Below are positions 42,301-46,884 of a DNA stretch of 64,000 bases, piece after piece. Under the pieces are notes generated by a model, which was not told the DNA's origin, made no database searches, and worked only from the letters and a program-made list of their open reading frames with translations. Made by a program: the position numbers and the translations under genes. Source of the stretch: an uncultured Desulfatitalea sp. (GTDB taxonomy: Bacteria; Desulfobacterota; Desulfobacteria; Desulfobacterales; Desulfosarcinaceae); assembly GCA_937868765.1 (NCBI GenBank), contig CALMNL010000003.1, forward strand, positions 682,001 to 746,000, in the 5' to 3' direction. Every line of letters begins with the position of its first letter. Position 1 is the first letter of the stretch.

Positions 42301-42691
42301 GGCGTCGGATGACACTCTTCCGAAAACGACTATCTTGATCTGCAAAGATGCTGTCTGGCGATTTGGACCGCTGAAACAGCCAGTTCCTGTCTTTCAGACC
42401 TATTTGGACCTCTTTTGGCAGGGACTGCAAAAGCCATTGCATTTTTCCTGCAGAACGAGTTTTGAGTACGCCAAGCAGCTAGTCTTCAACCGGCGCGAGC
42501 CCAGGCAAGCCATGAAATTCGCCAAAAACATCTGGCTTGGCAATGATTTTTCCCCAGGGGAGGGGATGGATCCTTATTTAATCAGGTGTTTTGGTGATTG
42601 CCTGCCTTTTGGCCCTGAATTTGAAATGCTCGCGATGAAGGTCTTCGAGCCGCTGCTATGCGCCGGCGAGCAGGTGCCTGTCGACAAATGA
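39395..42691 (+). CDS. recC: RecC, exodeoxyribonuclease V gamma subunit
   Basis: A 1098-residue subunit of the RecBCD helicase-nuclease for double-strand-break repair. The N-terminus has T-S-N-R-M-E-H-L, then V-M-V-Q-S-K-G-M-Q-R-W, N-V-Q-F-P-F-P-N, and I-F-G-I-S-H-L-P-P-F near residue 225, all RecC signatures of the inactivated helicase fold that holds Chi recognition. The C-terminal domain looks complete. RecB and RecD, which normally follow recC, are absent; the next gene is on the opposite strand and is unrelated. Confidence 0.93.
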   Translation: MVADIVPIASSLQVVTSNRMEHLAQGLAELLRDSPLVVGHHPLCPETVMVQSKGMQRWISMALARINGICANVQFPFPNAFLDRLYSLLVGAMPEFDPYSPQPLSFRIHNLLPDLVGLPEFEPLRVYLSDRNTPLKQYQLACKLADMFDQYAVFRPDMLIGWEAEKRSLSIPSGFAWQAILWRRIAAEIGNPHRTTLHMILIEHLMDSNPAKPLERLPARLMLFGISHLPPFHLQVLEALARRIPVYVFLLNPCRHYWFDIVSDKRMVRRRVGHQNHDITEKLHLERGNRLLASLGLLGQQFLERIHQNEPQVTEAFQDEFNGTLLGRIQQDILDLVDRPSPENDVHPSSSGIDGSVQVHSCHSPMREVEVLYDQLLEMLANDEQIQPRDILVMAPDINLYSPYIHAVFGAPRDEQKRIPFSITDQSLLMESPVAETFVQLLDLAGGRFEATRVINLLQCPAIGEKFGIAAADLPIVERWIETASIRWGWDADERRQHGLPGYRENTWRTGLDRLIMGYAFAPERDRLFSDILPHDGIGSGESRLVGALAAFAETLHDCLSEMEGSDSLDGWHVRLNTWLDRLFLANDEKEVGLKTVRSTLDQIKLIGQAVPHTAPLVFEVVRAWAKSALHRNTREAGFMAGGVTFCALLPMRSIPAQVICILGMNHDAYPREQRVPGFDLIALEPRPGDRSKRHDDRYLFLEALISARKRLYISYVGQNIEDNTSIPPSVLVEELLEYVAEGFGISADMYITKHPLHGFSTAYFDASNPHLFSYAEENKEAAGLLALEGQKRFFFNLPLPPPQAHRQRIDWEDLCAFFAHPTRYLLEQRLGIRLKVRSDNIEDRELFTLDALDRYRINHRILRACLAGKAPSEIYEVTKAAGMLPHGTAGSVLFMKLGDEVSAFLRAADLLLPDEKPRQSSVQVALPPFTVDGTLAGIYTDARIVCLLSNMGPKDLLKSFICHLALQLASDDTLPKTTILICKDAVWRFGPLKQPVPVFQTYLDLFWQGLQKPLHFSCRTSFEYAKQLVFNRREPRQAMKFAKNIWLGNDFSPGEGMDPYLIRCFGDCLPFGPEFEMLAMKVFEPLLCAGEQVPVDK

Positions 42692-42812
42692 AGCCAGGCG
42701 TGTTGACCCAATAATAGACCGCAATCCTCGGAATGGATAAACGACTTCCGAAAATGCATCAACACCGAGGGCCGGGCATTTAGGAAAATCGCTTAGAAGC
42801 TTGAAGCTTATG

Positions 42813-43418
42813 TCAGAAGCGTAAAACCACGCCGGCTCGGAAAGCATCATCGTTCATGGTCCAGTCCCCCGGACCAGAGTTCATTTTCAGATGATAGTTG
42901 CTGTAGGTCGCGATGACCGAAGCATTTTTGATTATACGGATGCCAACCCCCAGATTGAATTCGATAAACTCTTCTGTATCGAGAAAGGCCAGTGGATCCG
43001 GCGACCATGCGATATTGCTGAAGATTTCTACTGGTACAAATGTGTTTTCTTTAGGAAAAAGATATCCTGCGGCCAACGAAAAAGCCACCAGCCCCAAATC
43101 ACCTGAATTCTGTTCCTCATCCAGATCGCCACCGATGCCCCGCAGGCCGACTTCACAAAAAAATCCAGGGCTTAACGTATCGCTGCCGACCATCAGATCC
43201 AACGACGCCCACTTATACTCCGTTTCCTCATCGTCACTGTAGAGGCCGGATCCGCCCACCCGAAAATAACCGGAGTCCAAGTACGACTTGTCGTGAATGC
43301 CACCTGTGACGGATTTGCTGCCAGCACTCAAGTCGACCTCCCACTCCTCGGCCGGAGCTACTGAATTCAAGGAAAACAAAATTAGAATTGCTGCCACCAG
43401 CCTGTTGATCATTTCCAT
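42813..43418 (-). CDS. Outer-membrane beta-barrel protein (YfaZ-like)
   Basis: A 201-residue secreted protein with an N-terminal signal peptide (hydrophobic V-A-A-I-L-I-L-F-S then A-P-A). The mature part is rich in alternating Gly, aromatic and charged residues, and it ends in Phe (V-V-L-R-F), the usual last residue of a beta-barrel outer-membrane protein. Size and pattern fit the YfaZ family. The second of two adjacent ATG codons (43418) is best spaced from GGGAGGAG. Function unknown. Confidence 0.7.
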   Translation of the reverse strand: MEMINRLVAAILILFSLNSVAPAEEWEVDLSAGSKSVTGGIHDKSYLDSGYFRVGGSGLYSDDEETEYKWASLDLMVGSDTLSPGFFCEVGLRGIGGDLDEEQNSGDLGLVAFSLAAGYLFPKENTFVPVEIFSNIAWSPDPLAFLDTEEFIEFNLGVGIRIIKNASVIATYSNYHLKMNSGPGDWTMNDDAFRAGVVLRF

Positions 43419-43557
43419 CATTCTCCTCCCGTCGCTATTTGGGTTGGCTTTTCAAGGTTATACCTCTTCACATACAATGCCGAATTGATCAAGCCTCAAA
43501 GGTTCCATCGACGATCGACCAACCAACGTGAATTCACTACGGACCAAGCCGATGCGC

Positions 43558-43586
43558 TTGACATTCACTCCCCATATGGATAATAA
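43558..43586 (+). promoter_or_regulatory. Candidate promoter upstream of tRNA-Leu
   Basis: A perfect TTGACA (43558-43563) is followed after 17 bases by TAATAA (43581-43586), about 100 bases before the tRNA. The -10 is weak, and the distance is long for a tRNA promoter. Confidence 0.35.
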
Positions 43587-43686
43587 GCCCATTAATAATT
43601 GCCATAGAAATTTGGCCAGTTACGGCGCCATCGACAAAGGAGCCATCCTTTCCATAAATATGAAACGCAGCGCATCTCCATGGATT

Positions 43687-43775
43687 GCCTGGATGGCGGA
43701 ATAGGTAGACGCAAGGGACTTAAAATCCCTCGCCCTTTAATGGGCGTGCCGGTTCGATTCCGGCTCCAGGCACCA
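43687..43775 (+). tRNA. tRNA-Leu (UAA)
   Basis: An 89-base class II tRNA. The acceptor stem GCCTGGA pairs with TCCAGGC, discriminator A and encoded CCA. The anticodon arm AGGGA, loop CTTAAAA, TCCCT gives anticodon TAA. A long variable arm GCCC-TTTAAT-GGGC and T arm CCGG-TTCGATT-CCGG confirm leucine identity. Confidence 0.97.
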
Positions 43776-43887
43776 ATTTTTTTTTATTGTGAGCATAAAA
43801 ATTTGACGCACTCGCGCTGTGGCATGCGTCGGAAAAAAACAGCCGATAGGCCACACGGAAAAACTTAAGCTCATTGTTGGCGTTTAG

Positions 43888-44343
43888 ATGAGAATTAAAA
43901 ACAGTTTGGGATTGGAGACGAAAACGACACCTCTCGTGCTATTTAAAACCGAAGAGGGGCAGCCCCAACGTCCCAAAATCGAGGAAGATACCAATGGCTC
44001 AGTGCGCGAAGATGAGGAAGAAGCCTGGTATGTCTGCAGAAATTGCCAACAGCGTTTAGCCCATGCATCCGCCCGGAAGGTGATGCAGGGCAGCCACACC
44101 CATACCTTTGCCAACCCCAGTGGCATTGTTTTCGAAATTGCATGCTTTTCGACTGTCCAGGGATTTAGTTTTATGGGTCCTGCATCCACCGAGTTTTCAT
44201 GGTTTAGCGGGTATAGTTGGCGCATCATTGTTTGTTCTGTGTGCATAACCCACCTTGGATGGTCCTTTTCCTCCCAAAGCGGCAGCACTTTTTTCGGATT
44301 GATCACCGATCGCATTTTATTCTTGTCAAAACGGACCGCATGA
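43888..44343 (+). CDS. CULT-domain (cereblon-like) protein
   Basis: A 151-residue protein whose C-terminal 105 residues match a CULT domain, the thalidomide-binding fold of eukaryotic cereblon. Two Cys pairs for zinc are present: C50-R-N-C53 and C116-S-V-C119. The aromatic cage has Trp105 and Trp111 in S-W-F-S-G-Y-S-W and Trp125-x-Phe127 in H-L-G-W-S-F, aligning with human Trp380, Trp386 and Trp400. The H-T-H-T-F-A-N-P segment (70-77) and F-F-G-L-I-T-D-R-I complete it. Bacterial single-domain members are known; their role is not. The start lacks a clear ribosome binding site. An opposite-strand frame is rejected because this pattern is on the plus strand. Confidence 0.85.
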   Translation: MRIKNSLGLETKTTPLVLFKTEEGQPQRPKIEEDTNGSVREDEEEAWYVCRNCQQRLAHASARKVMQGSHTHTFANPSGIVFEIACFSTVQGFSFMGPASTEFSWFSGYSWRIIVCSVCITHLGWSFSSQSGSTFFGLITDRILFLSKRTA

Positions 44344-44470
44344 GAAGGGCGATGCCAACTTTTTGCCCATAGTGAATCAAAGGCTATAGGTGGGGCTCAT
44401 TTTTTGTGAAGACTACAATCAGATGTGTTTTCACGTGAAACGGCCTTTCATGCACATCATATGAAATTCT

Positions 44471-44500
44471 TTGACAGGCTTGGTGCTGTTTCTCTATATT
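44471..44500 (+). promoter_or_regulatory. Sigma-70 promoter before two small unknown genes
   Basis: A perfect TTGACA (44471-44476), an 18-base spacer and TATATT (44495-44500) precede the gene at 44544 by about 44 bases. It probably serves the genes up to the nuclease at 46884, which are closely spaced on the same strand. Confidence 0.65.
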
Positions 44501-44543
44501 CATCTTAAAATTGTACCCTTTGGGCACTGGTGGGGGCCAGGTT

Positions 44544-44876
44544 ATGACACTCAAGGATATCATAGATGCGTGCAAACATTTGCGTATCGTCGAACAGCGA
44601 TGCAGCACCCAGGAGTTCGTCGATCTCGTTTTCGAGAATAAGGATATCGAAGAGTGGCAGCGTATCCTGACCAATTTTCTCGGAACTCCGCGCAAGCCCA
44701 AAGGGCAGGAGCCTACCAATGGTGACCTAAAATTAACTGCCAGAACAGGCGGAATTCGTATCGAACAGACATTGTTCGAAAGGGATTTCCCGGAAAATAC
44801 TATCATTGCCAAATTCTGGCCATGGAAAGATGATCGGCATACCACCCTGCGTATGGCGACCCTTTTCAAAGGATAA
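44544..44876 (+). CDS. Small protein of unknown function
   Basis: A 110-residue soluble protein. The N-terminal half is helical with F-V-D-L-V-F-E-N and E-E-W-Q-R-I-L-T-N-F; the C-terminal part is beta-type and basic. No known domain was recognised. It lies behind a strong promoter and ends seven bases before the next gene. The ATG at 44544 is chosen; a TTG at 44511 would add 11 residues. Confidence 0.55.
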   Translation: MTLKDIIDACKHLRIVEQRCSTQEFVDLVFENKDIEEWQRILTNFLGTPRKPKGQEPTNGDLKLTARTGGIRIEQTLFERDFPENTIIAKFWPWKDDRHTTLRMATLFKG

Positions 44877-44883
44877 CAGTGAC

Positions 44884-45081
44884 ATGGAAAAGTTCTTACC
44901 GATCATTCAGGTCGTATGCGCTTTAGCGGCCGCTACAATTCTCGGAAACTGGTTTTTAACAGAAGTTCGAAAAACGAAAAAACTCGGGAAACCCTGGTAT
45001 ATGGCGTACCTCACCACGCCTGGAATCATCATTCTCCTGCTTATCTTCTTGCTTCCTTTGATCGCTTACAATTTCAGGTAA
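44884..45081 (+). CDS. Small two-helix membrane protein of unknown function
   Basis: A 65-residue protein with hydrophobic segments at about 4-23 and 42-60 separated by a basic turn (R-K-T-K-K-L-G-K). It starts after AAGGA and seven bases downstream of the previous gene, so translation is probably linked. No family was recognised. Confidence 0.6.
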   Translation: MEKFLPIIQVVCALAAATILGNWFLTEVRKTKKLGKPWYMAYLTTPGIIILLLIFLLPLIAYNFR

Positions 45082-45128
45082 ACCCTGCATTTTCTTGCTG
45101 TTGAAGTTGTTTCAGGTGATAAATCATC

Positions 45129-46226
45129 ATGAAGATCAGTCATTTGTTTGTGGAATCATCCGTAGCTGAAAACCCCCTGGTGGCCAAATTCGCCACACAG
45201 TTGTCGCTGCCGGCGGTCACGGTTGAAGATCACAAGACCCTGTTTGAGATGATAAAAAGCGAAGAGGATCCATGGCTGGCCGGCAAAAAGGTGATTCTAC
45301 TGACGCGCAATCATGGCCCCTTTCTACGACAATGCCCCGGTACGAGGGATTACATTTGCTGCAATTACAGGATTTTGAATATTGGTTCCTATTGTGTAAT
45401 GGATTGTGCCTACTGCATTCTGCAAAGTTATTTCCATCCACCAATGCTGCAATATTTCGTCAATCACGACGACTTGTGGCAAGAACTCGATAAAGCCCTC
45501 TCGGGGTCAGAGGGATTTCGCGTTGGAACCGGGGAATTTACCGACAGCCTCATTTGGGAACCGTGGTCGGATCTAACCCCCCGACTGGTGAACTATTTCG
45601 CAAGGCAGCAAAGATCAGTTCTGGAGCTAAAAACCAAAACTACCACCATCAGCCAGTTGAAAAATCTGGATCACCGACGCAAAACCATTCTCTCCTGGTC
45701 CTTGAACACGCCACGTATCATCGCCACCCAAGAAAGGGGAACGTCAACTTTGAGTGCCCGCTTGCGGGCAGCGGCCCAATGCCAATCCTGGGGCTATCCT
45801 CTGGCGTTTCATTTCGATCCGATGGTCATCTATCCAGGTTGCGAGCAGGAGTACGCACAGGTCATCAAAGAGCTATTCAATCAACTCGATGCCGAAAACA
45901 TCGTGTGGATCAGCATGGGGACCTTTCGTTTCATGCCGGCCCTGAAATCGACCATTCAAAAGCGCTTCCCCCAATCCGAAATCATCTATGGCGAGTTTGT
46001 TCCGGGTATGGACGGCAAAATGCGCTATTTCAAGCCCATCAGAACCCGCTTATATAGACAAATGGCAGAATGGATCAGAGAGCGGGCTGAACAGGTGACC
46101 CTCTACCTGTGTATGGAAGATGAACAAGTATGGGAGCAAAGTTTCGGTTTTACGCCTGAATCAAAAGGCGGACTGCCGGCGATGTTGGATCGAAGCGCAC
46201 GCACCCATTGCAACCTCTGTGGTTAA
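45129..46226 (+). CDS. SPL-family radical SAM protein
   Basis: A 365-residue protein similar to spore photoproduct lyase. The radical SAM cluster motif is C89-V-M-D-C93-A-Y-C96 (Cx3Cx2C), preceded by C-P-G-T-R-D-Y-I-C-C, and followed by E-L-K-T-K-T and the G-S-S-type barrel strands. The stretch aligned with the lyase hydrogen-donor Cys (A-C-T-S-D type) reads G-T-G-E-F-T-D, so the Cys seems to be missing. The organism is not a known spore former, so the substrate may not be spore photoproduct. It ends in C-N-L-C-G. It is followed 10 bases later by the nuclease gene. Confidence 0.8.
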   Translation: MKISHLFVESSVAENPLVAKFATQLSLPAVTVEDHKTLFEMIKSEEDPWLAGKKVILLTRNHGPFLRQCPGTRDYICCNYRILNIGSYCVMDCAYCILQSYFHPPMLQYFVNHDDLWQELDKALSGSEGFRVGTGEFTDSLIWEPWSDLTPRLVNYFARQQRSVLELKTKTTTISQLKNLDHRRKTILSWSLNTPRIIATQERGTSTLSARLRAAAQCQSWGYPLAFHFDPMVIYPGCEQEYAQVIKELFNQLDAENIVWISMGTFRFMPALKSTIQKRFPQSEIIYGEFVPGMDGKMRYFKPIRTRLYRQMAEWIRERAEQVTLYLCMEDEQVWEQSFGFTPESKGGLPAMLDRSARTHCNLCG

Positions 46227-46236
46227 ATCATCTTTT

Positions 46237-46884
46237 ATGACCAAAGCATTTCAATTTCTGTTATCTTTTGTTTTATTGGTTTGGGCTTGCCAATCTTATG
46301 GAATGGAGAAGGGGACTTGGGCAACGGTCCAAAAGGCGGTGGACGGTGATACCCTGCGACTTGTTAATGGGAAATCCGTACGACTAATCGGCATTGACGC
46401 GCCCGAGATCGATCACGAAAACCAGAACCATGAGCCTATGGCTATGGAGGCATGGCGATTTCTGAGCAGTATGACCAACGGAAAGCGCGTTCGACTGGTA
46501 CAGGGGCAAGCGCACTTAGACAGTTATGGTCGAATTCTGGCTTATGTTTACGATCCGGAAGGACGGATGCTAAACTTCCAAATGGTCGAGAAGGGATTGG
46601 CCCATGTGCTGTATCTATACCCTGATGTGCAAGCTTTTGAAAAACTCTTGGGGGCCCAGCGTCAGGCTCTGAAGAATAAACAGGGCAAGTGGCGCAATTT
46701 CAAATGGGAACAAGGCCCGTTTGTTGGCAACCATCGTACCAAACGGTTTCATAGACCAGACTGTTCATCCGCACAAACAATCAATTCAAAACACTCGGTT
46801 CTTCTCAAGAACGAGCGCGAAGCTCTCTGGGAAGGCTACGCCCCATGCCGGCAGTGCCTCTCTTTTGCCAAAAAAAAGAGCTGA
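46237..46884 (+). CDS. Secreted thermonuclease (SNase) with C-terminal Ada-like metal-binding domain
   Basis: A 215-residue protein with an N-terminal signal peptide (F-L-L-S-F-V-L-L-V-W-A). The staphylococcal-nuclease OB domain has D-G-D-T-L near residue 36, the R-L-I-G-I-D-A-P-E motif, and D-S-Y-G-R near 90. The C-terminal tail has H-R-P-D-C and A-P-C-R-Q-C, the Ada zinc-binding pattern (two Cys clusters). A Ca-dependent DNA/RNA hydrolase of the envelope is predicted. It is 10 bases after the SPL-family gene. Confidence 0.82.
   Translation: MTKAFQFLLSFVLLVWACQSYGMEKGTWATVQKAVDGDTLRLVNGKSVRLIGIDAPEIDHENQNHEPMAMEAWRFLSSMTNGKRVRLVQGQAHLDSYGRILAYVYDPEGRMLNFQMVEKGLAHVLYLYPDVQAFEKLLGAQRQALKNKQGKWRNFKWEQGPFVGNHRTKRFHRPDCSSAQTINSKHSVLLKNEREALWEGYAPCRQCLSFAKKKS

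Follow-up and report, generated by a model that had tools for sequence, protein, structure and literature searches.

A Desulfatitalea CULT-domain protein with a conserved short motif ahead of its single domain

The stretch of DNA analyzed here, a window of 64,000 nucleotides from an uncultured member of the genus Desulfatitalea (family Desulfosarcinaceae, order Desulfobacterales), encodes a CULT-domain protein related to human cereblon, the protein that thalidomide targets. The protein has a single confidently folded domain, yet a conserved short N-terminal motif stands ahead of that domain on a variable, often acidic linker. The gene is widely retained within the order, without sign of mobility. 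The protein is a further member of a kind already known, since bacterial CULT proteins, chiefly from delta-proteobacteria, have figured in the literature from 2015 onward (PMC4287342). The available text of that source describes them as made up of the CULT domain alone, and no report of a conserved tail was found in the accessible portions of the open-licence literature.

Membership in the CULT family, as named in the original prediction, is secure. The best match of the protein among PDB chains in a phmmer search was MsCI4 (MGR_0879), the CULT protein of Magnetospirillum gryphiswaldense (E 7.9e-26, residues 48–143), and entries named 'Protein cereblon' matched with E-values of 4.9e-13 to 2.4e-10 (2.2e-11 for human 4tz4), values that exclude a chance match. 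Clostridial Toxin A repeats also matched weakly in this search (best E 1.6e-5, residues 64–109), a similarity taken as chance, no single stretch passing alone. Pfam and NCBIfam yielded only sub-threshold matches, including Yippee-Mis18 (E 0.0035), SelR (E 0.012), and a methionine-R-sulfoxide reductase model (E 5.2e-4, with 19.8 bits against a cut-off of 179), and no PADLOC defence family covers the protein.

The predicted fold agrees with this assignment. AlphaFold2, supplied with an alignment of the protein and 68 relatives, produced a model with a mean predicted local distance difference test score (pLDDT) of 85.6 and 95 residues at or above 90. Means for ten-residue blocks are 89–98 across residues 51–150, and 71, 66, 63, and 54 for the successive blocks of residues 1–40. 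In a Foldseek search of the PDB, MsCI4 structures ranked at the top (first three, E 1.1e-11 to 1.4e-11, root-mean-square deviation [rmsd] 1.2–1.4 Å; TM by target about 0.9). Cereblon ranked below them; its isolated domains, the overlay proposed in the original prediction, superimpose mostly with an rmsd of 1.3–1.6 Å, and larger complexes with up to 4.4 Å. The model thus has the β-tent fold of MsCI4 and cereblon. The gene and its parts, all on the + strand, are as follows.

43888–44343 (+): CULT protein gene (P0001), ATG start, 151 amino acids, identified by sequence and predicted-fold matches.
43939–43947 (+): N-terminal short motif L18-F19-K20, identified by conservation; its order-wide form is hydrophobic-[LF]-[RK]-x-P.
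43948–44028 (+): variable linker, residues 21–47, rich in Glu and Asp near its end, with mixed site rates and low pLDDT.
44029–44316 (+): CULT domain, residues 48–143, delimited by the phmmer stretch (48–143) and pLDDT.
44035–44046 (+): first CxxC, C50 and C53 (69 of 69 aligned sequences).
44200–44202 (+): putative cage residue W105, equivalent to MsCI4 W79 and human W380 (69 of 69; mapping from PMC8900816).
44218–44220 (+): putative cage residue W111, equivalent to MsCI4 W85 and human W386 (69 of 69).
44233–44244 (+): second CxxC, C116 and C119 (69 of 69).
44260–44262 (+): putative cage residue W125, equivalent to MsCI4 W99 and human W400 (69 of 69).
44266–44268 (+): F127, putative cage base, equivalent to MsCI4 Y101 (Phe in 63 and Tyr in 6 of 69; PMC8900816).

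A contig scan returned 182 pattern-matching stretches, 152 of which were confirmed as relatives, and the best 80 of the 152 were analyzed; four of the six nearest relatives among these are named Desulfatitalea. A smaller alignment (A1) combined the window protein with 23 of 30 loci. The larger one (A2, 69 sequences), on which the counts here are based, combined it with 68 of 80 loci, 12 near-duplicates, judged by eye, being excluded. The four Cys of the two CxxC motifs, which form a putative zinc site, and the three Trp are invariant in A2 and, like F127, lie where the original prediction placed them. The NPxG hairpin is likewise retained throughout (N76, P77, and G79 in 69 of 69), and position 102 is nearly always acidic (Glu in 59, Asp in 9, Gln in 1). 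We infer a Trp cage because the aligned residues match W79, W85, W99, and Y101 of MsCI4 (PMC8900816), in keeping with the overall rmsd.

MsCI4 has the same single CULT domain, with both CxxC pairs, the three Trp, and the NPxG hairpin. The window protein differs from it in having 49 residues before the first Cys, the match to MsCI4 starting at chain residue 23, and in having F127 for Y101 and S78 for A52; proteins of the order also differ from MsCI4 in mostly bearing an [LF][RK] motif ahead of the first Cys. With the CULT domain of human cereblon it shares the Cys pairs, the Trp residues of the putative cage, and a cage base without a Tyr hydroxyl. In contrast to human cereblon, the 151-amino acid protein has no LON domain and has Phe rather than His at the position of human H378 (PMC8900816). 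Position 78 corresponds to human H353. In MsCI4, Ala52 is described as incapable of the contact formed by His353 of human cereblon (PMC8900816). Position 78, Ser in the window protein, is His in 40 of the 69 sequences, and His78 and Phe127 occur together in 36.

Beyond these residues, H70 is conserved in 67 of 69 sequences. The codons for H70 to H72 lie at 44095–44103 and that for C86 at 44143–44145; on the predicted hairpin (strands 71–75 and 81–87), H70 may be positioned opposite C86. L140 and L142, two divergent CULT proteins that belong to other lineages within the phylum, have the Cys pairs and the Trp residues; no Cys equivalent to C86 was recognized in them by eye.

The N-terminal tail was analyzed in 82 sequences (the best 80 of the 152 loci, the window protein, and G226). 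The pattern hydrophobic-[LFIM]-[RK], starting 29–36 residues before the first putative zinc Cys, occurs in 70 of the 82 and mostly lies 32–35 residues before this Cys; in a control stretch 12–19 residues before the Cys it occurs in none of them. After removal of 15 redundant tails, the motif was observed in 55 of the remaining 67, as compared with an average of 6.9 and at most 16 when residues were shuffled within each tail. The claim of a conserved motif is based on these two comparisons, with the control stretch and with the shuffled tails. Among the 44 tail columns, tree-based site rates for the 82 sequences were lowest in the [RK] column (80 of 82; Arg 67, Lys 13), at 0.24, while 23 of the 44 have rates of 2.67–2.69. 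The linker between motif and domain is variable and often acidic. The window's own copy, L18-F19-K20, has no Pro. The original prediction makes no mention of this motif.

The gene matched in 182 of 291 genomes sampled from the order (about 63%), and in 116 of the 173 better ones (at least 90% complete, at most 5% contaminated). At family level the gene matched in 23 of 30 genomes, including 15 of 16 of good quality. A class-wide sample that overlaps that of the order gave 159 of 241, the matches listed all falling within the same order, and a phylum-wide sample gave 13 of 148, ten of them outside it. The gene is the single match in its own genome. Two genomes of the family that have the main CULT gene also encode a divergent paralogue of it, with 31% identity (L144:3664–4125, − strand, and G478:C171:2532–2804). 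Phage and plasmid collections contained no CULT match, and one scan of IMG/VR viral contigs gave 21 pattern matches and no relatives.

Bacteria are not known to have an E3 ligase partner for CULT. The original prediction took the role and natural ligand of CULT in bacteria to be open, and we agree; the available text of PMC4287342 and PMC4449219 leaves them so. We tentatively propose, with a probability of about 0.4, that the product is a cytosolic single-domain CULT binding protein that acts as a tethered reader of cyclic imides, its tail docking to a partner. It would function in binding, not in catalysis. Its β-tent pocket with three Trp would hold a glutarimide, cyclic-imide, or uracil-like ring, as in the relatives studied: MsCI4 binds thalidomide (PMC4449219), and human cereblon recognizes C-terminal cyclic imides (PMC12117711, PMC11974815, PMC13001092). 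The imide rings read by this pocket would most likely be C-terminal cyclic imides arising from Asn or Gln damage on proteins, and the N-terminal motif would bring the reader, through docking, to a partner acting on the captured protein.

Several observations weigh against this proposal. The relative MsCI4 also binds uridine (PMC4449219). In the tail, the [FL] and Pro columns (rates 0.90 and 0.88) are no slower than eight linker columns, mostly acidic, with rates around 0.9, and the column of hydrophobic residues preceding [FL] is fast (2.50), so that Arg/Lys is the firm part of the motif and the remainder is softer. The alignment may be biased towards the motif. In the tails the pattern also turns up in other places, 11 times immediately ahead of the first Cys and 8 times at other distances (21 and 43–57 residues), and outside the order three of ten relatives carry it 32–34 residues before the Cys. 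Among the neighbours of 82 loci (the best 80 of the 152 plus L111 and L114), no gene points to proteolysis. PIMT, which has been linked to cyclic-imide formation in humans (PMC13001092), is found (PF01135) in all 291 genomes, a few having weak matches only (for example, the CULT-bearing G046), and its co-occurrence with CULT is therefore uninformative.

Given that MsCI4 binds a nucleoside, it is possible, if doubtful, that the protein instead senses or buffers a small heterocycle, such as free uridine or uracil, and is coupled to a regulator through its tail. Pyrimidine genes are not regular neighbours, however: a Cytidylate_kin2 gene lies next or next but one to CULT, on the opposite strand, in 13 of the 82 loci. 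The motif might also dock to no partner and pack on its own CULT domain, gating or stabilizing it. Confidence in the AlphaFold2 model is slightly higher for residues 1–20 than for residues 31–40, and parts of MsCI4 are described as unfolding upon ligand removal (PMC4449219). The tail nevertheless has neither secondary structure nor high confidence in the model, and a variable linker separates the motif from the domain, which makes packing of this kind rather unlikely.

A bold extension of the tethered-reader proposal would make the protein a degradation adaptor, its pocket catching cyclic-imide ends and its [LF][RK]xP tail docking on an AAA+ protease. The argument is one of analogy, and we consider the role improbable. 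SspB-type ClpX adaptors likewise have a binding domain joined by a linker to a short peptide, and the XB peptide of SspB is reportedly leashed by a flexible linker. This peptide, RGGRPALRVVK, binds the N-domain of ClpX and also has a Leu-Arg core (PMC3983244), to which the resemblance is confined. The CULT motif, a putative docking motif, is unlike it N-terminal and usually followed by x-P. ClpXP would be the first candidate because the genome has ClpX (one match to its zinc domain) and no SspB recognized by PF04386, a model that detects the SspB of E. coli and Caulobacter and has no match in the whole genome. If the proposal were true, a bacterial CULT adaptor would either predate the ubiquitin version or stand in parallel with it, and cereblon's link to degradation would be more ancient than its E3 ligase.

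We regard it as more improbable still that the protein is an enzyme, whether a relative of MsrB or a cyclic-imide hydrolase using H72 and C86. These two residues and H122 are invariant (69 of 69), and the fold is common to MsrB (PMC4287342). The titles of two MsCI4 entries in the PDB (6r0s and 6r0v) name hydrolysis products of ligands, which could be spontaneous; two others (4v2y and 5amh) name complexes with thalidomide itself. The divergent relatives L140 and L142 do without an equivalent of C86, as read by eye, and nothing else indicates catalysis.

Two neighbours of the gene serve as context.

43687–43775 (+): tRNA-Leu(TAA), syntenic neighbour upstream of the CULT gene.
44544–44876 (+): gene of a 110-amino acid protein downstream of CULT, a positional neighbour within the bacterial family.

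The tRNA-Leu that the original prediction placed beside the gene is indeed there. In one set of loci, tRNA-Leu(TAA) lies no more than 1.5 kb upstream of CULT in seven of seven from the genus and in none of the 23 others, some of which end early at a contig edge. A second set comprised 18 longer loci, mostly of the genus or family, and five of them had this tRNA: two of the genus (including the window), L151 from another genus of the family, and L082 and L146, apparently from the same genome. Within the genus, a gene resembling that of spore photoproduct lyase (SPL) lies downstream of CULT in eight of eight loci, and RecC lies within four open reading frames (ORFs) upstream in seven of eight. 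Such synteny, together with neighbours that change across the order, makes the CULT gene look vertically inherited and standalone rather than part of an operon or island; the tRNA-Leu is a syntenic neighbour and no mark of an island. The original prediction had instead called the stretch accessory-looking. The adjoining tRNA and a dip in GC content (about 0.48 at the gene versus 0.52–0.54 upstream) speak for insertion of a mobile gene, which is nonetheless most improbable in view of the genus synteny, the retention across the order (182 of 291 genomes), and the lack of relatives in phage, plasmid, and viral-contig searches.

The survey of relatives that had been suggested thus revealed synteny within the genus, but clustering of the flanking ORFs of the 82 loci revealed no order-wide partner gene, the commonest neighbour family being present in 15. 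Annotated neighbours in these loci include Usp, RmuC, a cytidylate kinase-like protein, a ClC channel, and an ADP-ribosylglycohydrolase. Beyond the genus the gene has differing neighbours, which give no clue to the role of the protein. Genes for recombination helicases or nucleases occur nearby in the family, with RecC in the window and UvrD-type helicases, RecB/RecD-like in our own reading, in L097. A helicase adjoins CULT in three other loci; the one tested, in L078, is of the RecD2 type, and a link to recombination helicases was dropped for that reason.

In 14 of 30 family genomes the ORF at 44544–44876 has a homologue with E <1e-30, and the gene adjoins CULT in 12 of 12 that have both; a fragment lies beside CULT in G250. 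However, 10 of the 23 CULT-bearing genomes of the family do not have it beside CULT, and in G482 and G483 it is present although the whole genome yields no CULT match (in G483 a different ORF is directly upstream; in G482 the contig starts about 500 bases upstream). We read this as shared position and not partnership. The ORF has no NCBIfam match and only one sub-threshold Pfam match. Its product is modeled confidently (pLDDT 94); Foldseek against the PDB gave nothing at E ≤0.001, and a PDB profile search gave five matches, the best with E 0.012. Weak similarity (E 6e-4) was seen to part of an 863-amino acid ORF in the same genome (cf. L143).

A promoter-like site (44471–44500, 11 of 12 positions) precedes the next gene, the region having three such sites where 2.3 are expected, and a search for RNAs in 42600–46000 found the tRNA alone. 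In five of eight genus loci, tRNA-Leu and CULT are separated by an HU/IHF-like gene, identified by eye; the corresponding interval of the window (43776–43887) has none, and 12 matches occur elsewhere in the genome. Farther downstream, 45129–46226 (+) encodes a radical-SAM protein related to SPL (Pfam SPL E 1.7e-25) that passes the Pfam cut-off and stays far below the NCBIfam cut-offs, and 46219–46884 (+) encodes a Staphylococcal-nuclease-like protein with a match to an Ada-type zinc-binding domain at 22.4 bits versus the Pfam threshold of 23.

These results add to what has been described for bacterial CULT proteins their wide retention in an order, a conserved tail, and pocket positions like those of human cereblon in 36 of 69 sequences. 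Because the latter proteins have His at the H353 position along with Phe127, where MsCI4 has Ala and Tyr, some of them may be closer natural stand-ins than MsCI4 for work on cereblon ligands, judging from the alignment. Retention in 182 of 291 genomes and a tail usable as bait make the question of ligand and role testable, and the conserved docking-like tail could help reveal what CULT does in bacteria.
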